In this document: piece after piece, positions 1-9,108 of the stretch | How positions within the stretch are numbered: position 1 is the stretch's first letter | Layout of the letters: each line of letters starts with the position of its first letter | From: a virus | Length of the DNA: 25,878 nucleotides | Virus record (IMG/VR): IMGVR_UViG_3300034404_000014 | Coordinates: 1-25,878 of that record | Reading direction: 5' to 3' (one strand) | Notes under the pieces: model-generated | Told to the model about the DNA's origin: nothing | Databases searched by the model: none | What the model saw: only the letters and a program-made list of their open reading frames with translations | Position numbers and translations under genes: made by a program

Positions 1-1
1 G

Positions 2-127
2 AATTGTGGGGCGCTCGATTGGGACAGGGTTCTGGGTTACTGGTGCTGGAATATTGAAGATAGCCCAGACCCGGAGCATCCACAATGCATCAGAAAAAAA
101 CTCAAGGAGGTGGAGCCATGGATGTAA
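2..127 (+). CDS. C-terminal part of an unknown protein, cut by the window edge
   Basis: An open frame enters from the left edge and stops with TAA at 125-127, giving about 41 residues. The segment is rich in Trp, Asp and Pro (WDRVLGYWCWNIEDSPDPEH) with two Cys, and ends in a Lys/Glu-rich tail. The last codons (KEVEP) are the ones that spell out the SD of the next gene, whose ATG at 118 lies 10 nt inside this frame. The same end-of-gene arrangement recurs at 6911-6970. I do not recognise the family. The start is outside the window, so length and domain content are unknown. The frame may be real coding or a chance open stretch. Confidence 0.45.
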   Translation, partial: NCGALDWDRVLGYWCWNIEDSPDPEHPQCIRKKLKEVEPWM

Positions 128-519
128 AGGGAGTATTGTATCAATTGTATGATTACTTATTTACTTATTTGTTGTATCGTCCTAATGATGGCAAGGCGGT
201 AGTTTTAGTAGAGGATATGTTGTATGCGATGGAGAGTAAGCATCCGAGATTGCGGATTTTTCCTGATGATCCTATAGAGCGAGCGATTTTAGTAGTGCTC
301 CCATTTTGGATTTATCCGAGTGGAGCAATGCTGAGGCGTGCTAAAAAAATATTAGAAATTGATACAAAAACGACTAAAAAGATTTTTCGATATGCAGAAG
401 CGTATCCATCTGAAAAGTTTGATGAATATTGCATAAAAAAGATGAAAGAGTTGTCGCAAGAAAACACTGAAGGAATATTCGAAATACTTGAAAAGATAGA
501 GAGAACATATGCAGAGTAG
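118..519 (+). CDS. Early-region protein of unknown function, 133 aa
   Basis: The ATG at 118 is chosen because AAGGAGGTGGAGCC ends directly before it; an upstream in-frame ATG at 85 has no SD. The protein starts MDVKGVLYQLYDYLFTYLLY. It has an aromatic, hydrophobic N-terminal third, a mixed middle (LPFWIYPSGAMLRRAKKIL) and a charged helical C-terminus. I see no signal peptide, Cys motif or nucleotide-binding motif. It is the first complete gene of the plus-strand accessory block and is followed by a strong hairpin at 527-553. I do not recognise it. A small helical host-takeover protein is possible from context alone. Confidence 0.75.
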   Translation: MDVKGVLYQLYDYLFTYLLYRPNDGKAVVLVEDMLYAMESKHPRLRIFPDDPIERAILVVLPFWIYPSGAMLRRAKKILEIDTKTTKKIFRYAEAYPSEKFDEYCIKKMKELSQENTEGIFEILEKIERTYAE

Positions 520-526
520 CCTTATT

Positions 527-553
527 GCCCCTGTGCTGAAGAGGCGCAGGGGC
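527..553 (+). other. Strong intergenic RNA hairpin without U-tract
   Basis: GCCCCTGTGC (527-536) pairs with GCGCAGGGGC (544-553) over 10 bp with one G-U pair and a 7-nt loop. It begins 8 nt after the stop of the 118-519 gene. It is followed by TGAGGGAGGAGG, not by T residues, so it is not a classical rho-independent terminator. A processing site, an mRNA 3'-end stabiliser or a translation-modulating element are the options. Confidence 0.6.
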
Positions 554-574
554 TGAGGGAGGAGGTGGGGAGTG

Positions 575-598
575 ATGCAGTGTAGGGATCCGTGCTAA
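575..598 (+). CDS. Possible 7-aa leader peptide MQCRDPC
   Basis: The ATG at 575 follows GAGGAGGTGGGG, as strong an SD as any real gene here has, but the frame ends after seven codons (TAA 596-598). The stop abuts the AAAAGGAG that precedes the next mini-ORF at 616. It could be a leader peptide, the relic of a longer gene, or an accidental start codon after a leftover SD. Confidence 0.25.
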   Translation: MQCRDPC

Positions 599-602
599 AA
601 GG

Positions 603-656
603 AGCGAAAAATCGAATGAACGAAAAAATGAGCGAAAAATCGAATGAACGAAAAAA
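603..656 (+). repeat. Exact 26-nt tandem direct repeat, period 28
   Basis: Positions 603-628 and 631-656 are identical. Each starts AGCGAAAAATCG and ends in six A, with TG between them. A degenerate third partial copy (CGAATGAAAAATGCGAATGAAAAA) follows to about 680. The repeat is A-rich with no T-run, and contains the start and most of the mini-ORF at 616. It could be a protein-binding (iteron-like) array, a slippage product, or part of an A-rich 5' leader for the gene at 709. Confidence 0.8.
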
Positions 657-663
657 CGAATGA
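616..663 (+). CDS. Possible 15-aa mini-ORF inside the A-rich repeat
   Basis: ATG 616 to TGA 661-663 encodes MNEKMSEKSNERKNE, a hydrophilic Asn/Glu/Lys peptide whose periodicity (MSEK/SNER) simply reflects the 28-nt DNA repeat. AAAAGGAG lies about 11 nt upstream, a weaker and more distant SD than for neighbouring genes. Its coding status is doubtful. It is listed because it fills the gap between the genes ending at 519 and starting at 709. Confidence 0.2.
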   Translation: MNEKMSEKSNERKNE

Positions 664-708
664 AAAATGCGAATGAAAAAGATAAAAAACCAAGAGGAGG
701 TGTGAGTT

Positions 709-924
709 ATGATGAAAGAGCTCAGAATTGCAAAAGTGGGCAATAATGATTTAATTATCAAGCCAATACTAAAAAGTTTCTATTGTTGTTATTGCGATAG
801 TATTGCACAGTGTGCAAGTTCTCCACACCGCAGTGGTTTCTGGGTGGTGTTTGAGGCAAGCCGATATCGGGGGAAATTCTACTTGGGGGGCAATCTGTAT
901 ATAGACATTAGGCCGTTAGAGTGA
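709..924 (+). CDS. Small Cys-containing protein of unknown function, 71 aa
   Basis: The ATG at 709 lies 8 nt after AGAGGAGG; a second ATG at 712 is also possible. The protein has a cluster FYCCYCDSIAQC (Cys at about 26, 27, 29 and 35) and one His nearby (SSPHRSGFW). It then has an aromatic beta-rich C-terminal half ending in LGGNLYIDIRPLE. The cluster could bind a metal, but the spacing does not match a zinc ribbon I can name. A perfect 10-bp hairpin begins 9 nt after the stop codon. Function unknown. Confidence 0.65.
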   Translation: MMKELRIAKVGNNDLIIKPILKSFYCCYCDSIAQCASSPHRSGFWVVFEASRYRGKFYLGGNLYIDIRPLE

Positions 925-933
925 GTATATAAA

Positions 934-958
934 CCCCTCTCCCTTAGCGGGAGAGGGG
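934..958 (+). other. Perfect 10-bp hairpin followed by an SD with no start codon
   Basis: CCCCTCTCCC (934-943) pairs perfectly with GGGAGAGGGG (949-958) around a 5-nt loop. There is no U-tract. The next bases, GAGGAGGTGGAGCC (960-973), are the same SD-plus-spacer used by real genes here, but are followed by GTAG instead of ATG. The hairpin may mark the 3' end of the 709-924 gene's message, or cover for a gene lost after the SD. Confidence 0.65.
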
Positions 959-988
959 CGAGGAGGTGGAGCCGTAGGAGGAGGTGCT

Positions 989-1045
989 ATGGAGGAGGGT
1001 TATAAACAGTATAAGCAAGTTTTGAAAAAAATCAAGAGGAGGTGA
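989..1045 (+). CDS. Possible 18-aa leader peptide coupled to the next gene
   Basis: ATG 989 follows AGGAGGAGGTGCT. The frame encodes MEEGYKQYKQVLKKIKRR and stops with TGA at 1043-1045. Its last codons (AAG AGG AGG TGA) are themselves the SD of the gene starting at 1050. Ribosomes translating it would therefore end on the next gene's initiation site, a typical coupling arrangement. The peptide is basic. Its coding is plausible but cannot be settled from length alone. Confidence 0.4.
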   Translation: MEEGYKQYKQVLKKIKRR

Positions 1046-1049
1046 GGTT

Positions 1050-1262
1050 ATGTCTACGAGTTTTAGATTGTTTCCCGAGGCGTGTATTGAAAAGATAGTG
1101 GAGTGTGCTATTGAAGAGGGTAAGTTGTTTGAGTTGCTTTTTACGGATGAGGGTAAAAAGCTATGGGAGAGGTGGGGCGAGGATAGGATTAGGGCTTTAG
1201 TGATGCAGAAGCTGGGTATTAAGTTTGAAGAAGGAAAAAAACAGAGGAGGTGGCGGAGATGA
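1050..1262 (+). CDS. Small charged protein of unknown function, 70 aa
   Basis: Starts at ATG 1050 behind AAGAGGAGGTGAGGTT. The protein (MSTSFRLFPEACIEKIVECA...) looks all-helical, with a strongly basic C-terminus (KKQRRWRR) whose codons carry the SD of the next gene. Its TGA overlaps the ATG at 1259 as ATGA, so the two genes are translationally coupled. I see no catalytic motif. It could be a small DNA- or RNA-binding regulator by charge, but the family is unrecognised. Confidence 0.7.
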   Translation: MSTSFRLFPEACIEKIVECAIEEGKLFELLFTDEGKKLWERWGEDRIRALVMQKLGIKFEEGKKQRRWRR

Positions 1263-1513
1263 AGAGAGAAGAGAGGTTAGAGAAAATCAGAAGTGAGCTA
1301 CAGGATTTTGAGAGGTGTTTGAATGAGGCGAATGGTAATGTAGCGGTTGCTTTTGATAGGTGGTTAGAGAGTTGGCGTATGTTAGGGGTAGTTGAGGCTA
1401 TATGGTATTGGGTGAATATGGGTTGGACGGAGGAAGAGGTGCGAAATGAGTTGGAAGAAGTATATAAGTTAATAGATGAGGAGTTAGCAAAAATAAAAGC
1501 GGAGGAGGTGTAG
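1259..1513 (+). CDS. Small acidic helical protein of unknown function, 84 aa
   Basis: The ATG at 1259 is preferred over the GTG at 1250, because that GTG is part of the SD AGGAGGTG itself. The protein starts MKREERLEKIRSELQDFERC. It is almost wholly charged helix, with an aromatic centre (EAIWYWVNMGW) and an acidic C-terminus (DEELAKIKAEEV) that again encodes the next SD. It overlaps the previous stop by ATGA and precedes the next gene by 2 nt, so 1050-2010 reads as a tight three-gene unit. No family recognised. Confidence 0.7.
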   Translation: MKREERLEKIRSELQDFERCLNEANGNVAVAFDRWLESWRMLGVVEAIWYWVNMGWTEEEVRNELEEVYKLIDEELAKIKAEEV

Positions 1514-1515
1514 CC

Positions 1516-2010
1516 ATGGTTGAGAGGAGGGATGATTTTTTGGTGCAGATTTTGGGGGATTATAACCGTATTAATGGCAGGAAGATTTTAGAGGCGTTAC
1601 GGAGGTTTGAGTTTAATCATGAGGCGAAAACCTTTGAAAGGGCATGTCTTGAGAAAGCGGTTCAGTATTTAGAGCAAAAGGAAGAGCTTACTGATGAAGA
1701 GGTTTTAGCGTTGCTCATTCGTCTTTGTATGATGCATTTTGTGCAGGAGGGGCACCGCAAAAATTTGTGGTTTCTTATAATGGCGGGGTTACTTCCGCAA
1801 GAGATACAGCAGGCGAAGATGAGCGAAGTAGTGCTGAAGTTTGAGGAGCAGTTTATAGAGTATATGGAGATGATAAGTGCGTTGCGAGGGGATGAAGTGG
1901 TTAGGGATGCGGTGTTGTTTTTTTTGTTTCAAGAGAATGCGGATTTTATTTTTGCGGTGTTTCAGGCGTCTGATATGTTGTTATCGGGTGTAAAGAAAAT
2001 GTTGCATTAG
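1516..2010 (+). CDS. Helical protein of unknown function, 164 aa
   Basis: The ATG at 1516 follows GGAGGAGGTGTAGCC. The protein (MVERRDDFLVQILGDYNRIN...) appears all-helical and acidic, with hydrophobic stretches LLIRLCMMHFVQ and AVLFFLFQENADFIFAVF. The second could be buried core or a short membrane-associated helix. There are no Cys pairs or Walker motifs. It is the third gene of a closely spaced trio (1050, 1259, 1516) and is followed 25 nt later by the small gene at 2036. Function unknown. Confidence 0.75.
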   Translation: MVERRDDFLVQILGDYNRINGRKILEALRRFEFNHEAKTFERACLEKAVQYLEQKEELTDEEVLALLIRLCMMHFVQEGHRKNLWFLIMAGLLPQEIQQAKMSEVVLKFEEQFIEYMEMISALRGDEVVRDAVLFFLFQENADFIFAVFQASDMLLSGVKKMLH

Positions 2011-2035
2011 ACTAAAAACAGAGGAGGTGGGAGCG

Positions 2036-2176
2036 ATGAAGAAAGAACTACAGGAACCCAAATATTTAACACTCTGGAAAGATGGCAAATTAATTTTCCT
2101 AAAAAGAGAGGAGTTTGAGCGTCAAGGGATTGTGAAAAAAATAACGAGGTATTTAAAAAAGTTGATTAGGCGTTAA
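2036..2176 (+). CDS. Small basic protein, 46 aa
   Basis: The ATG at 2036 lies behind GAGGAGGTGGGAGCG and the frame ends with TAA at 2174-2176. The protein begins MKKELQEPKYLTLWKDGKLI and ends in a basic amphipathic stretch (VKKITRYLKKLIRR). The N-terminal part reads like a short beta hairpin (LTLWKDGKLIFLKREEF). The strong SD and the position between a coding trio and tRNA-Arg support real coding. Function is unknown; nucleic-acid binding is possible from charge. Confidence 0.65.
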   Translation: MKKELQEPKYLTLWKDGKLIFLKREEFERQGIVKKITRYLKKLIRR

Positions 2177-2186
2177 ATTTTAAGAA

Positions 2187-2260
2187 GCCCCTGTAGCTCA
2201 ACAGGATAGAGCAGCGGATTTCTAATCCGCGGGTTGGGGGTTCAAATCCCCCTAGGGGCT
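2187..2260 (+). tRNA. tRNA-Arg (anticodon UCU)
   Basis: The complete cloverleaf can be read by eye. The acceptor stem is GCCCCTG (2187-2193) with TAGGGGC (2253-2259), one G-U pair. T8 A9 are followed by D-arm GCTC/GAGC (2196-2199, 2209-2212). The anticodon stem is GCGGA/TCCGC with loop TTTCTAA (anticodon TCT at 2221-2223), and the T-arm is GGGGG-TTCAAAT-CCCCC (2236-2252). CCA is not encoded and the discriminator base is T, unusual for Arg. It decodes AGA, used freely by genes in this window. It lies just upstream of the ring nuclease gene. Confidence 0.95.
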
Positions 2261-2293
2261 TATAACGAAAAAAAAACAGAAGGGGGTGGAGCT

Positions 2294-2626
2294 ATGCTTT
2301 ACATTTTCAACACACTAATTATACCTGTGGATTTTCAAAACAAACAGGGGTATGTTGTCTCTTTATGGAAAATCGACTTAGAGACAGCTCGCAAGATTGT
2401 TAAAGAGATAAGGTTTACATCGGCAGTCGGCCACGAGGCGACTGCCAAAGTGCTCACGGAGCTTCTTGGGGTAGAAATTCCATACAACCGCATCACTGTA
2501 AAAATGGTGGAAGGTGATGCGGGTCTTCATTTTGTCCTCAGGACGAGGTTGCCTGAGGGCAAAGTCTTATCTGAGGAGGAGCTCAGGCAATTAGACTTCG
2601 ACCTTGTTCTTAGCCGAGTATGCTAA
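2294..2626 (+). CDS. acrIII-1: DUF1874 cA4 ring nuclease, AcrIII-1-type anti-CRISPR
   Basis: 110 aa from ATG 2294 behind AGGGGGTGGAGCT; the upstream in-frame start at 2234 would lie inside tRNA-Arg. The protein opens MLYIFNTLIIPVD, as DUF1874 proteins do. It carries the family signature FTSAVGHEATAKVL, with catalytic His at residue 47, then PYNR (Arg66) and RTRLPEG (Arg85, Glu88). In SIRV1 gp29 (AcrIII-1), His47 and Glu88 are active-site residues. That enzyme cleaves cyclic tetra-adenylate, the second messenger made by type III CRISPR complexes, and so shuts off Csx1/Can1-like effectors. Length and residue numbering match without gaps in the core. Host CRISPR-associated Crn2 proteins share the fold, but the phage context favours the anti-CRISPR role. 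It sits between two tRNA-type genes. Confidence 0.92.
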   Translation: MLYIFNTLIIPVDFQNKQGYVVSLWKIDLETARKIVKEIRFTSAVGHEATAKVLTELLGVEIPYNRITVKMVEGDAGLHFVLRTRLPEGKVLSEEELRQLDFDLVLSRVC

Positions 2627-2636
2627 GTAAGCTAAA

Positions 2637-2712
2637 GCGGGCTTAGCTCAATGGAGAGCGTCCCTAAGGATAAGACCTTAGGGGAGGAGGGGTTCAATTC
2701 CCCCAGCCCGCT
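2637..2712 (+). tRNA. tRNA-like gene with expanded anticodon stem, identity unassigned
   Basis: The acceptor stem GCGGGCT (2637-2643)/AGCCCGC (2705-2711) is perfect. T8 A9 and the D-arm GCTC/GAGC (2646-2659) are normal. The T-arm (2688-2704, loop TTCAATT) has four good pairs plus one A-C. The anticodon arm is abnormal: CCCTAAGG (2662-2669) pairs perfectly with CCTTAGGG (2676-2683), an 8-bp stem around a 6-nt loop ATAAGA. A weaker shifted fold gives a 7-nt loop with T33 and anticodon AAG (Leu). CCA is not encoded and N73 is T. It may be a degenerate tRNA, a specialised tRNA, or a tRNA mimic. Confidence 0.6.
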
Positions 2713-2743
2713 TTTAAAAAAAATCAAAAAGGAGGTAGGAGTT

Positions 2744-3511
2744 ATGCCAACAGTAATTGATGTCAGCATTACATACATTACACCCATTCTTGGTATTAAT
2801 CCCATTGATGACATCGGCACAGCTTATTTTGAGGAGCGTATCAAAAAAGAAATCGAAAAAATAGAGAAGAAGTTATCGAAGGTAAAAGATGACAATGAGA
2901 GGCAAGCTTTAGAGATGAGACTTGAGCGGTTGCAGCAGGAGCTTATGGGAATGACAAACGGTGAGGAAGATGAGTTTGAGAATAAAAAAGTTAAGGTATT
3001 TCTTCGCAATCAAGAGGGTGCTTTGTGTTGGAGCCATCATCAGGTTAAGGGGCATCTAAAAGAGATAGTTCAATACAGGATGAGTGAGAGTTGGTTGCGC
3101 AATGCAATATCGAGGTTTGTTGATATTTTTCCGTATGGATGGGATATTGAGAGGGGAATAAGTTCGGAGGCGGATTTAATACCTATTTTGAGAAATGGAG
3201 AACCGATAAAACAGCCAGATAGCATTTTGTCGAGACCCCTGACATCTTGGGTAGGGACACAGAGGATAGTTACAATATCAAGTTCAGAGTTGATAAATCT
3301 GCCAGCGGAATTGCAGTTTAGGGTAGTCATTTGGGACATTGAGAAAAAGGACAAAATACCTACTCCAGAGCATATTCAAAAAATCTTAAGTTATGGCATT
3401 CAGTGGGGGCATTCGGGGTGGCGGACTGCGAGGTATGGGCGGTATGAAGTGAAGGAGTTCAAGGTAGTATCTGGAGAGAGGAAGATGAAGAAGATTGTGG
3501 TAAAGAAATAG
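2744..3511 (+). CDS. Possible RAMP/Cas7-like RNA-binding protein, 255 aa
   Basis: ATG 2744 follows AAGGAGGTAGGAGTT; the longer frame from 2651 would run through the tRNA-like gene. Residues 28-68 are a charged coiled coil. Residue 82 onward reads as a beta strand followed by HHQVKGHLKEIVQ (about 98-110), comparable to the strand-then-GxxLKG helix of Cas7/Csm3-type RAMP proteins. Near the C-terminus, ELINLPAELQFRVVIWD is followed by a helix and WGHSGWRTARYGRYEV (about 220-235), which resembles the RAMP glycine-rich loop. I infer a RAMP-like fold from this pattern; it is not proven. Next to a ring nuclease, an RNA-binding decoy or inhibitor of type III complexes is conceivable. Equally, it could belong to an uncharacterised phage family unrelated to CRISPR. 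Confidence 0.75.
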   Translation: MPTVIDVSITYITPILGINPIDDIGTAYFEERIKKEIEKIEKKLSKVKDDNERQALEMRLERLQQELMGMTNGEEDEFENKKVKVFLRNQEGALCWSHHQVKGHLKEIVQYRMSESWLRNAISRFVDIFPYGWDIERGISSEADLIPILRNGEPIKQPDSILSRPLTSWVGTQRIVTISSSELINLPAELQFRVVIWDIEKKDKIPTPEHIQKILSYGIQWGHSGWRTARYGRYEVKEFKVVSGERKMKKIVVKK

Positions 3512-3915
3512 GAGGAGAAACGAGGCAAGATTTAGCGACGAGTAACGAGTTAGTAAAGTGGGAAACTATGACAACTTATGGTGTAGAGTGGGGGATGGGT
3601 GCTGAGAGATGTGTCGTTAAGTAAGGGAGTTGAGAGGAGGTAAGATGTTTAGAATGGAATTGGTAAAGAAGGGTGGAATGAGGTGGCGGTTGTGAGGAGA
3701 GCTAAGCAGAATAGTAGAGGTAAGAAAAAGGAGCAGTAGAGGTGTTGTTATGAGAGGATTGGTTGAGGTTGTGAATTGAGGTTGTCTGGGTAAAGAGTTG
3801 TAGCGTCAGGAGTTGTAGTGGTGAAGTGTGGAGGTGTGCGGAGATGGTGAGGTGGGAAATGGACATGAGGTGTGATGAATTGGTGAAGAACTATGCTAAA
3901 ATAGGGGGTGGGGCT
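3512..3915 (+). other. 404-nt stretch without a convincing gene
   Basis: The plus strand here is strikingly G-rich and C-poor, with repeated GAGGTG/GGTTGTG/GTAGTG words. No long frame has an SD. The best candidate is a 16-codon ORF (ATG 3645, SD GAGGAGG, stop 3693-3695). An 18-codon ORF at 3568-3624 has no clear SD. It may be a decayed gene, an untranslated leader for the gene at 3916, or a replication-related region. I found no clear promoter, iteron or hairpin in it. Confidence 0.6.
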
Positions 3916-4128
3916 ATGATTGTCAAACTTGGCAGTGCTTATATTAATCTCTATTTAGTTCCTATCGTAGAATTCGACAGGGACGATGAAAACAGAGAAA
4001 GAGTGATTTTTTGGCTACATCAGGGACCTGTTGCTTATGTGAAAGGAGAAGAAGTTTCAGAAGAAGAATTCGCTAAGTTAAAAGAAGCATTAGAAGTTAT
4101 GAAAAAAGGGGTTGTTTCTTGTCTATAA
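3916..4128 (+). CDS. Small beta-rich protein of unknown function, 70 aa
   Basis: ATG 3916 lies behind AGGGGGTGGGGCT; an upstream frame extension to 3826 has no SD. The protein begins MIVKLGSAYINLYLVPIVEF. It shows strand-strand-helix organisation: two beta strands, a hydrophobic strand ending ERVIFWLHQG, then an acidic linker (GEEVSEEE) and a helix. Its second half looks like that of the protein at 7867-8100 (VRFWFRSG...EVTEEE plus helix), so the two may be paralogues. It immediately precedes the primase gene. Function unknown. Confidence 0.65.
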   Translation: MIVKLGSAYINLYLVPIVEFDRDDENRERVIFWLHQGPVAYVKGEEVSEEEFAKLKEALEVMKKGVVSCL

Positions 4129-4151
4129 TTTAAAATTTGTGGAGTTAAAAA

Positions 4152-6896
4152 ATGAGCGAGTTAAAAAAGTTTTTGCGCTTGTATCGAAAGTATGGTCTTG
4201 TTGTAATACCTCTCGCTCAACTCTCTAAAGTTCCTATTAAAGGATTTGATTTAGAAAAAGTCTACGATACAGGACAGGTGGAATATTATTGGGAGAAGCA
4301 TCAAGGCAATATAGGCATAGTATCTGGATTTAACAATTTGCTGATTATTGATTGTGATAGTCCTGAGGCTATTACTTGGTTTGAAGCTCAGGAAGAGTTT
4401 ATCCCGACAGTCACAGTTAAAACTCGCAGGGGACATCATTATTGGTATGGGCTTTACAATGTTCCTGAGAACTTTGAGAGGCGGTCAATTAAGCTTTCCG
4501 ACCCTGATGAAGTGTTCAAGATTGAATTTTTGTTTGGTCGAAGGTATGCAGTAGCGCCCCCTTCTGAAGTTCGACACAATGGAACCATTTATAAGTATGT
4601 CTTCATAGATGGTTACGATGTCATAAAGCATGAGCTTAATATTGCTTTGCTTGATTTTGAGGCGTTCAAAAAGCTCCTTGTAAAAGCGTATAAGCGTTCA
4701 GGTAAAGAATACGAAACGGAAAGAGTTCAGGCTAATGTTCAAGTATTTGCTCCGAAAGTAGGCGATGAAACGAAGGTATCAAAGTTTTTGCAGATAGTCG
4801 AGCTTTGCAAGAAATATTACACAGAAGGGGTTCGACAAACGATTTGGTTAGGGCTTTCAGGAATTGCAAGAAAGTTGCATTTGCCGAAAGAGGTCGTTGA
4901 AGACATTTTGCGAAAGGAGCTTTACGAAGGGTTGAATGATGATGACAGCATAAAACAGCGGTTGTCTGCAATTGAAGAGACCTACAAGAAGTCAATTGAA
5001 GAAGTAGCAGGCATTAGCATTCTTACTCAGCAAGTTTTTAATGAAGAGGATGCCCGAACGGCTCTTTACATTTTAGGAAGGTTTGGCAAACCGAAAGTTT
5101 CAGGGGTTCCCGTTTTTACGGAAGATGACCTTGGTCGAGCCCAAGAAGTTATCAAACATGGAACTAAATTATTTGCGTTGATAGAGAATGACTGGTATTT
5201 GCTGACTGAGAATGAAAAATCAGAAAAAGATGAGAAAAGGATTAAGAAACTGAAGCCTGTTTGTGCTGGATTTTTATTGAAAGACAGAGGGTTTAAGTTT
5301 TCGACAAATGAACCTATTTACATTATTTATAACTGCGAGACCCGCAGAACAGGAAGGATAACTTTGGATATTAATCGTTTGCAAAATTTTCTTGGACGAC
5401 CTATACTTGATACGCATAATGTTAAATTTTTGCTTGATGCTTTGATAAGAAATCATCAAGAAAAGCTCTTTGTTTCAGAAATTGGTTGGTTTAAGACGGG
5501 GAGCAAGCGAGTATTTATACATCCTCTTAATCAAAGTGCTCTTCTTGAGTATGGTTTATATTGTGATCTTGACCCAAAAGATGTAGAGCATTTTAAATAC
5601 ATCAACGCTTCGAAACAGCATGAAATAGTGAGAGAGCTTTTGGTTGAAGGGCTTTGGTTGGGAGTTAAGATAGTTTTAGGTGTGGCAAGTTTATTTATAG
5701 ATGAGAACATAGCAGGTTTTACTGTTTTTGATGTAGGACCTCGTGGAGTAGGGAAAACTACAACATCTCAGTTTATTATGAGTTTATTTTACAATATCAA
5801 TGTTCCGATGACTTTGAATGCTACAGAGACAGGGTTTGAGTTATATATGAGAAAGTTTCATAATTTGCCTGTTCTTTTTGATGAGACGGCGTTAATTTCA
5901 GACAGCAAGCTTCAGGAGCGTGTTTTTAAGATAGCAGGTGGGATGGGAAAGTTAAGAGGCACGAAAGATTTATCGATTGACATTACGCTACTAAAATCAG
6001 TAGTATTTGTGACAGGTGAAGTAGATCCGCAGTTTGAGAGGAGAGGTGCGGAAAGGCGTTATGTTATAGTTCCTGTAGATCACTGGGGGAACTATACGAT
6101 GAAATATGATCCGCAGACATTACATCAGGTTATGCGGTCAGCTTGCGGGGCTGGATTTGATTACATAAAGTTTTTGGAGCAAGAGGGGGATGTAGAGATA
6201 GAAATTCCGATGCCTGAGCATTTTCAGATTTTTACTTTTACGAAGTTGATAGAGAAGAGCTTTAATTTTTTGAAGAAGTTTTACAATCTTTCACGGCAAG
6301 AGATTAGCGTTTTAGAGAAAAATCTTTATGCATTGTTGAGTTATCAATTAGAAAAGCTTGATTTAAGTTTGGAGAAAATTTTAGCGGATTTTGCTGAGTT
6401 CTTACTATCCAGAGCTCCGCATTTTGTCATTAGGAATTCATCGGTGCAACAGGTGCCCAGACACCATGTCTACGGTGAAATAGACCCACTTGCGGAGAAA
6501 GCTTATATTACACGGGAGTGTCTCGAGGACTTTAGAGATTTTGTGAAGCTTGATTTGAGGACTATATTGAAGCTTTTTGAAGAAGTGGAAGTGGTAACAG
6601 TGCATTACACAACAGATAGCACTGGAACGGTAAAGAGGTATACAAAGGCTAAACGGATTAAATACATGGAGACCGATATAGTGGCATCTGTGTATGAAAT
6701 CAATTTAAAGAAAATTTCGGAGGGGTTAGCATCTGATTTAGCTGGTGCAGTGAGACGGAGTGCAGGTCCTCCGAACCCTTTAGCTCAAATAATAACCATG
6801 CCTAAGGAAGAGGAGCCTAAGGAAGAGGAAGAGGAGCCTAAGGAAGACCTGAAAGAGATTAACATCCCAACCCCTGATGATAATTTACCTTTTTAG
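4152..6896 (+). CDS. Primase-polymerase/helicase replication protein, 914 aa
   Basis: The N-terminal ~160 residues match the bifunctional primase-polymerase (archaeo-eukaryotic primase) fold: LLIIDCDS gives the metal-binding Asp67/Asp69, RGHHYWY gives His96/His97, and IEFLFGRRYAVAPPS gives the third acidic residue Glu126. The C-terminal half is a DUF927-like ATPase/helicase with Walker A GPRGVGKT (529-536, Lys535), Walker B LPVLFDE (Asp577, Glu578) and an arginine-finger region ERRGAERR (629-636). Such proteins prime and unwind DNA at phage and plasmid origins. The last 30 residues are Pro/Glu/Lys repeats ending PDDNLPF, very like the acidic tip of bacterial SSB. The SD before ATG 4152 (TGGAGT) is weak compared with its neighbours. 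No DNA polymerase is seen next to it. Confidence 0.9.
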   Translation: MSELKKFLRLYRKYGLVVIPLAQLSKVPIKGFDLEKVYDTGQVEYYWEKHQGNIGIVSGFNNLLIIDCDSPEAITWFEAQEEFIPTVTVKTRRGHHYWYGLYNVPENFERRSIKLSDPDEVFKIEFLFGRRYAVAPPSEVRHNGTIYKYVFIDGYDVIKHELNIALLDFEAFKKLLVKAYKRSGKEYETERVQANVQVFAPKVGDETKVSKFLQIVELCKKYYTEGVRQTIWLGLSGIARKLHLPKEVVEDILRKELYEGLNDDDSIKQRLSAIEETYKKSIEEVAGISILTQQVFNEEDARTALYILGRFGKPKVSGVPVFTEDDLGRAQEVIKHGTKLFALIENDWYLLTENEKSEKDEKRIKKLKPVCAGFLLKDRGFKFSTNEPIYIIYNCETRRTGRITLDINRLQNFLGRPILDTHNVKFLLDALIRNHQEKLFVSEIGWFKTGSKRVFIHPLNQSALLEYGLYCDLDPKDVEHFKYINASKQHEIVRELLVEGLWLGVKIVLGVASLFIDENIAGFTVFDVGPRGVGKTTTSQFIMSLFYNINVPMTLNATETGFELYMRKFHNLPVLFDETALISDSKLQERVFKIAGGMGKLRGTKDLSIDITLLKSVVFVTGEVDPQFERRGAERRYVIVPVDHWGNYTMKYDPQTLHQVMRSACGAGFDYIKFLEQEGDVEIEIPMPEHFQIFTFTKLIEKSFNFLKKFYNLSRQEISVLEKNLYALLSYQLEKLDLSLEKILADFAEFLLSRAPHFVIRNSSVQQVPRHHVYGEIDPLAEKAYITRECLEDFRDFVKLDLRTILKLFEEVEVVTVHYTTDSTGTVKRYTKAKRIKYMETDIVASVYEINLKKISEGLASDLAGAVRRSAGPPNPLAQIITMPKEEEPKEEEEEPKEDLKEINIPTPDDNLPF

Positions 6897-8115: not shown

Positions 8116-9108
8116 ATGATAGTAGAAAAAATCAGAGAAAAATATCAGCCAGTGCAATTCCCAATTAATAGCAACAGATGTTCTTCTTTGGGGCATCCTT
8201 GTCTTAGATATTTAGTCTTTGAAAGACTGCATTGGGATCAAAAGGCACCTTTGCCTACTTCAGTGCTTATGAAAATGGAAATGGGAAAATTAATTGAACG
8301 ACAGACCATCATCGACTTACTCCAAACTGGCTTCGAAGTCATCCATCAGCAAGTTCCCTATTTTCTTAGAGAATATCAAATCTCTGGAAAGATAGATGGG
8401 AAAATATTAACCAACGGAAAGGTGCATGCTATTGAAATCAAGTCGATGGAAAGTTGGAACTTGAGAAAGTTTAATAAGGCTGAGGACTTCTTAGAGGCAG
8501 ATAAGTTTTATTACAGAGGCTACTATCACCAGCTCAATCTGTATCTTTACATGATGCGTGAACAAGGCGAGAAAATAGAAGGTGGCATCTTTATTCTGAG
8601 AGGTTTCGACGGCTCTTGGAAAGAAATTCACATGTCTTTGGATGAGGACCGAGCTTTAGAAATTCTGGAAAAAGCTAAAAAAATTAACGAGCATGTAGAG
8701 AAAAGAACCTATCCAGAGCCACTCTGGAGAACTAATCCAGATGATTTGGCTACTTGTCTCGTTTGCCCATATAAACACATGTGCCTGACTGAAATGCAAG
8801 GAGCTGAAAAAATCATCTTTCGTGAAGATAACGAGCTTCTCATGATGCTAAAAGAAAGAGCTGAGCTTGAAGAATATGCCAAGAGATACGAGGAATTAAC
8901 CGAAAAAATTAAAGAAGCTTTTACCATCCCAAAAGACATGCAAGCAGAAATGCTTAACAGAAATGAAACCGAGAAGTTTTATGTTGTTGATAAGTTCGTT
9001 ATCAAGCAAAAGCTCTATTGGCAAACTGAATATCAAGTGCCTAAGGAAATTAAACAGCAATACGCTGTCAAAGCTCCACGGTGTAGAATAACGATTGAAA
9101 CTCTGTAA
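8116..9108 (+). CDS. RecB/Cas4-like PD-(D/E)XK nuclease with putative Fe-S cluster, 330 aa
   Basis: ATG 8116 follows AAAAAGGAGGGCTAAA. The nuclease core is visible: ISGKIDG (Asp94), AIEIKS (Glu107, Lys109), and the RecB motif QLNLY (Gln139, Tyr143). Cys22 or Cys29 in the N-terminus and Cys214, Cys217 and Cys223 (CLVCPYKHMC) are spaced like the four cysteines that hold the 4Fe-4S cluster in Cas4 and AddB nucleases. The family digests DNA ends, usually 5'-3'. Here it probably makes the 3' single strands used by an annealing protein (candidate at 6967). The C-terminal ~90 residues are helical with no recognised domain. It is a stand-alone nuclease, not fused to a helicase, as is common in phages. 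Confidence 0.88.
   Translation: MIVEKIREKYQPVQFPINSNRCSSLGHPCLRYLVFERLHWDQKAPLPTSVLMKMEMGKLIERQTIIDLLQTGFEVIHQQVPYFLREYQISGKIDGKILTNGKVHAIEIKSMESWNLRKFNKAEDFLEADKFYYRGYYHQLNLYLYMMREQGEKIEGGIFILRGFDGSWKEIHMSLDEDRALEILEKAKKINEHVEKRTYPEPLWRTNPDDLATCLVCPYKHMCLTEMQGAEKIIFREDNELLMMLKERAELEEYAKRYEELTEKIKEAFTIPKDMQAEMLNRNETEKFYVVDKFVIKQKLYWQTEYQVPKEIKQQYAVKAPRCRITIETL

Follow-up and report, generated by a model that had tools for sequence, protein, structure and literature searches.

A probable VIPR system beside a viral ring nuclease gene in a Hydrogenobaculum phage 1-like virus

Introduction

The RAMP proteins of CRISPR systems include the Csm3 and Cas7 subunits, which bind RNA targets. In 2026, the phage-encoded VIPR system was proposed as the ancestor of the CRISPR RAMPs, and the preprint describes it as an ancestral RAMP, Vipr, that acts together with vrRNAs of 9 to 16 pentanucleotide repeats (PMC13142463). 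The repeat is given there as GGY/NN "or a related consensus", with staggered arrays also mentioned, and the vrRNAs are described as reading double-stranded DNA under a 1-nt skip rule and as silencing competing elements (PMC13142463).

Here, we describe a locus of a hot-spring phage that resembles VIPR in its protein and in the tract adjoining its gene. The locus lies in a stretch of 25,878 nucleotides, which is referred to below as the window. It comprises a vipr-like gene, a periodic tract directly downstream of it, and an upstream gene for an AcrIII-1 viral ring nuclease.

Results

The vipr-like gene and its predicted fold

The gene and the parts of its product that are discussed below are as follows.

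2744 to 3511, + strand: vipr-like gene for a 255-aa protein of predicted RAMP/Cas7 fold (family HMM 65 bits; AlphaFold2 pLDDT 88.6; Csm3/Cas7 Z 13; SUSP1-type Vipr profile Prob 95.5)
2810 to 2956, + strand: long helical hairpin, residues 23-71, initially annotated as a coiled coil (model secondary structure; family alignment)
3044 to 3070, + strand: VKGHLKEIV helix, residues 101-109 (Lys106 invariant in 91 sequences; model)
3392 to 3445, + strand: glycine-rich RAMP G-loop YGxxxGxxxWRxxxxGRY, residues 217-234 (invariant residues in 91 sequences)

The open reading frame begins with an ATG at 2744, its stop codon ends at 3511, and an AGGAGG ribosome-binding site at 2730-2735 lies ahead of the ATG. 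An alternative in-frame ATG is located upstream at 2651, but translation from this position would run over a tRNA-like gene, and the protein aligns with four relatives, to which it is 82-85% identical, from the same MPT start. The start was therefore placed at 2744 rather than at 2651. The 255-aa gene of the initial annotation is thus confirmed, and the motifs quoted there were all found in its product: VKGHLKEIV at residues 101-109, LINLPAELQFRVVIW at approximately 183-197, WGHSGWRTARYGRYEV at 221-236, and the helical hairpin at 23-71. Given the high identity to the four relatives and the recurrence of the C-terminal motif in a large phage family, these motifs go beyond chance.

The AlphaFold2 model, built with 91 sequences, has a pLDDT of 88.6, and its best Foldseek matches are Csm3 and type VII Cas7, with E-values of about 1e-6 to 1e-5. 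In VIA-align, the best Z-score was 13.2 over 175 residues (rmsd 4.1 Å), and the 50 matches listed, with Z of about 13 over 150-180 residues, were CRISPR RAMP proteins such as Csm3, Cas7, and Cmr4, as were the Foldseek matches listed. PDB entry 36pp was absent among the Foldseek and VIA-align matches listed, the structure library being dated to April 2026. The model thus supports a RAMP/Cas7 fold with a G-loop, and bears out the Csm3/Cas7-like layout that had been read from the sequence.

The glycine-rich loop is common to Vipr, Cas7, and Csm4. The alignment of 91 family sequences contains no invariant acidic residue, and a Csm3-type RNase site is therefore not apparent in the 255-aa protein. 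In the family alignment, the hairpin formed by residues 23-71 exceeds its length in the rest of the family, and in the model it is possibly thumb-like.

Family membership and relation to Vipr

Homologues with 82-85% identity are found in Hydrogenobaculum phage 1 (HP1), as gp16, and in metagenomic viral contigs. The assignment of HP1 to Hydrogenobaculum rests on CRISPR spacer matches (PMC7689252), and the window is accordingly regarded as an HP1-like Aquificae virus. In Pfam, PHROGs, and NCBIfam, there was no family model for the 255-aa protein, the matches being to coiled coils or at chance level only.

The wider family was gathered through its C-terminal motif, YGxxxGxxxWRxxxxGR[FY]: a scan of viral contigs for this pattern yielded over 100 phage loci, and the ORFs at these loci have the whole layout in common. 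An HMM of members from outside the Hydrogenobaculum phages gave the window protein a score of 65 bits, with an alignment covering almost its whole length. As a guard against circularity, the C-terminal motif and the coiled coil were deleted before rescoring; five homologues so truncated still scored 27-35 bits, and shuffles scored negative. In a profile-profile comparison, the window protein matched the phage family with Prob 98.6 and an E-value of 1e-15. On these sequence grounds, the 255-aa protein belongs, as a divergent member, to a large family of phage proteins.

The relationship to Vipr was assessed against six sequences, namely SUSP1 Vipr and relatives from other phages. The family profile aligned with this set over 184 columns with Prob 95.5 and a pairwise E-value of 1.5e-8 (single comparison), and the alignment runs end to end, closing in a common GxGxWRxxxGRF loop. 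By sequence, the family profile also matched type VII Cas7 at 2e-5 and Csm4 at 1e-3, while the direct match to 36pp ("SUSP1 Vipr protein") had an E-value of 0.2, which is below significance on its own.

A period-5 tract downstream of the gene

The roughly 400 nt located 3′ of the vipr-like gene contain 40% G and 5% C and hold no convincing gene until an ORF opens at 3916.

3512 to about 3893 (3′ limit approximate), + strand: candidate vrRNA array (held-out model score; unit parse; lag-5 autocorrelation)

This tract can be parsed into about 75 units, 59 of which are 5 nt long (N-G-[T/A]-N-N) and 14 of which are 6 nt long (mostly GGTNNN). The recurrence of G at a 5-nt lag has a z of 15.9 when pooled over six phages and of 4.0-7.7 in each individual phage, and known VIPR arrays were positive in the same test. 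When hidden Markov models of several periods were compared on the downstream tracts, the preferred period was 5, with a unit of N-G(0.87)-[T.58/A.41]-N-N, interrupted by a +1 slip every 25 nt or so. A scoring model trained on the relatives, with the window held out, gave the tract a score of +27, as against -36 ± 6.5 for 300 dinucleotide shuffles, and among 538 window segments taken from both strands, a positive score arose only where the segment overlapped the tract. Neither Tandem Repeats Finder nor an Rfam scan reported the tract, which Tandem Repeats Finder misses because the units are mostly variable. No promoter or terminator for the tract rose above chance level, and no vrRNA tails were recognised within it.

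Comparison of homologous array blocks shows that 19 of 21 changes at the W position exchange T and A, while transitions dominate at the other positions. These swaps would fit a position that is read by the protein and tolerates either base. Conservation of the NN pair exceeds that of the spare position only slightly, a weak trend with the expected sign. Homologous blocks are short and shuffled between phages, the arrays turn over fast, and the unit is kept in every relative. To judge from these patterns, the tract looks like the guide-RNA array of the vipr-like protein.

In L003, the first 270 nt after vipr contain three similar guide-like runs with a nearly constant NN series (GC AT CA AA GG; GC AT CA AA GG; GA GT CA AA GG), in which W and the spare base vary, as if several guides addressed one target.

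Arrays in relatives

A period-5 tract follows the vipr gene in every Aquificae-virus relative examined. Among the 93 family loci examined, a strong period-5 tract lies no more than 1.5 kb from the gene in 86, the GGCNN tract of L053 being one example. Distant parts of the same contigs (n = 71, at least 4 kb away) served as control regions, and 95% of these fell under a level that was exceeded by 88 of the 93 near regions. They replaced antisense flanks, which were dropped as a control since GGC-type arrays are periodic in C as well. The tract is also present in four viruses whose protein is only 40% identical (L180-L183), where it takes the form GANNN with z of 6.5-9.5.

Neighbouring genes

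The locus is flanked by two further genes.

2294 to 2626, + strand: DUF1874/AcrIII-1 viral ring nuclease (PF08960, 9.4e-26, nearly full length)
3916 to 4128, + strand: 70-aa ORF directly after the array (conserved in HP1, G001, G003, and G005; no Pfam match)

The AcrIII-1 neighbour named in the initial annotation is upheld by a DUF1874/STIV_B116-like Pfam match, and the gap between it and the vipr-like gene measures 117 nt rather than the 132 nt originally given. The product has a histidine at residue 47, in ...AVGHEATAK..., and in SIRV1 gp29 the H47A substitution yields an inactive form (PMC7213978). DUF1874 adjoins vipr in all 11 contigs that span both genes (the window, G001, G002, G003, G005, HP1, and L179-L183), with a few small ORFs or a tRNA sometimes intervening, so that the co-occurrence proposed as a check at the outset holds in the Aquificae viruses. 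No vipr was present in the stretch fetched around the more distant DUF1874 loci L184-L186, and no significant DUF1874 match was obtained near the non-Aquificae family loci. The pairing is therefore specific to the Aquificae-virus group, and VIPR as such does not require DUF1874.

The 70-aa ORF at 3916-4128 is possibly an accessory gene. In L180-L183, and also in L179 and L048, the array is directly followed by the gene of a conserved ribbon-helix-helix protein (RHH_3, E-value of 5e-7 for the L180 copy), which is a candidate vap-like DNA-binding accessory gene.

Between AcrIII-1 and the vipr-like gene, at 2636-2713 (+ strand), ARAGORN calls a "tRNA-???", the anticodon of which is unreadable; its anticodon arm resembles an 8-bp stem capped by a 6-nt loop (CCCTAAGG-ATAAGA-CCTTAGGG). 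This tRNA-like gene is not conserved, some relatives having only a gap of 65-70 nt there. A normal tRNA-Arg(TCT) lies just upstream of AcrIII-1, at 2186-2261 (+ strand), and Rfam finds tRNAs in HP1 (L005) and L004 too. Further upstream, noncoding DNA at 597-677 (+ strand) holds 2.9 copies of a 28-nt tandem repeat, AAAACGAGCGAAAAATCGAATGAACGAA.

At 8116-9108 (+ strand), the window encodes a Cas4/PD-(D/E)XK-type exonuclease, annotated in HP1 as a "Cas4-domain exonuclease". Apart from this Cas4-like exonuclease, no cas effector gene was identified among the window ORFs, and repeat searches of 1-4200 and of the whole window detected no CRISPR array.

Discussion

Interpretation as a VIPR system

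The protein at this locus has a RAMP fold and belongs to a large phage family; a periodic array is conserved beside its gene, and in the Aquificae viruses the two are linked to DUF1874. We consider it very likely that the locus is a VIPR system, in which a Vipr-type RAMP and the adjacent array would silence rival DNA.

A first alternative is that the RAMP and its array RNA act not on rival DNA but on RNA, or else on genes of the phage itself, in regulation, counting, or packaging. In the search for targets, guides were decoded as the two bases after GW in each unit, over 9 units and with skips of 0-3. In the Aquificae-virus contigs, the match counts of these guides equalled those of shuffled guides at any skip length, with no excess of self-matches, and one 18-base guide pattern had no match in viral contigs. 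The lack of targets in the viruses searched would suit either of these modes of action, as would the fast turnover of the array and the kinship of the protein to the RNA-target-binding Csm3/Cas7 subunits. However, null searches are expected if the targets lie outside the elements searched, and would then be uninformative. Self-matches that do not rise above shuffles argue against action on the phage's own genes, and the family has no invariant acidic residue of the kind to be expected in a Csm3-type RNase. Furthermore, the Vipr relatives are described in the preprint as reading DNA and repressing rivals (PMC13142463). This alternative is thus very unlikely.

The initial annotation had proposed instead that the protein is a RAMP decoy, or a binder of crRNA or target RNA, that poisons host type III complexes, in which case the downstream repeats would be unrelated. 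The Csm3-like fold and the constant AcrIII-1 neighbour are in keeping with such a role, and Hydrogenobaculum CRISPR spacers do target HP1 (PMC7689252). Yet many family loci, those outside the Aquificae viruses among them, lack a DUF1874 neighbour, a period-5, guide-like array as in VIPR is kept beside the gene across hosts, and the protein family aligns with Vipr. The decoy proposal is therefore not supported, and we regard it as highly improbable.

It is scarcely credible that the tract consists of decayed DNA or of G-rich sequence of low complexity and that the protein is an unrelated RNA-binding protein of the phage: although the tract is G-rich and C-poor, escapes Tandem Repeats Finder, and has no promoter or terminator beyond chance, composition is insufficient to explain its score (-36 for shuffles against +27), the period is 5 and not 3, and the unit is kept in every relative despite its quick turnover.

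Proposed mechanism and implications

For a VIPR system at this locus, the transcription of a vrRNA, its assembly with protein, the skip-rule reading of DNA, silencing, and the choice of rivals as targets would follow by analogy with the VIPR preprint (PMC13142463). The array from 3512 to about 3893 would be transcribed, and the RNA would be bound along a series of Vipr subunits. In each pentanucleotide, the protein would hold on to the fixed G and its T or A neighbour, which would leave the variable NN to pair with DNA. Guided by a run of such units, the protein would bind a gapped DNA target and so block the transcription of rival elements, which would probably be competing phages or mobile elements of Aquificae hosts. 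Next door, AcrIII-1 would independently degrade cA4 produced by host type III CRISPR.

It is possible, if somewhat doubtful, that the two genes form a two-sided module of Aquificae viruses, in which type III signalling is disarmed by AcrIII-1 and competitors are silenced by a VIPR whose code is altered (GW, or GA in the sister lineage, in place of GGY) and whose continuous, phase-slipping array holds overlapping guides. If so, the T-to-A and A-to-T swaps and the shift from GW to GA between lineages would show evolution of the protein's repeat reading, and a changed code that can be compared between relatives of 40% identity would make code evolution directly testable. The fixation of VIPR beside an anti-CRISPR in Aquificae viruses would similarly make a link between CRISPR evasion and inter-viral warfare testable. 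In addition, the VIPR assignment would provide a putative function for a large phage protein family that has no model in Pfam, PHROGs, or NCBIfam, and would explain why repeat finders miss the arrays of the vipr-like family.

Comparison with known systems

AcrIII-1 (DUF1874, SIRV1 gp29) is represented at this locus by the upstream gene at 2294-2626, with its full-length Pfam match and His47; it is a neighbour, however, and not the 255-aa vipr-like protein itself. With the Csm3/Cas7 proteins of type III and type VII CRISPR-Cas, the vipr-like protein shares the RAMP fold, an LKG-like helix, and a glycine-rich C-terminal loop. Unlike these proteins, it is a phage protein that stands alone, no further cas effector gene and no CRISPR array having been noticed next to its gene; identity in the structural alignment is 8-18%, and the phage family has no invariant acidic residue.

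The closest likeness is to VIPR from Escherichia phage SUSP1 (PDB 36pp). Both are minimal phage RAMPs with a G-loop, outside any CRISPR array or cas operon, and in both a long intergenic pentanucleotide tract with fixed and variable parts adjoins the gene. The present locus differs in that its tract is unbroken and slips by +1 roughly every 25 nt, no tails were recognised, the helical hairpin is longer, and DUF1874 is a fixed neighbour. The locus also departs from the exact GGY fixed part, the unit being N-G-W-N-N here and GANNN in L180-L183. Since the preprint allows for "a related consensus" (PMC13142463), the use of GW or GA in place of GGY marks a variant of VIPR rather than an exclusion from it.
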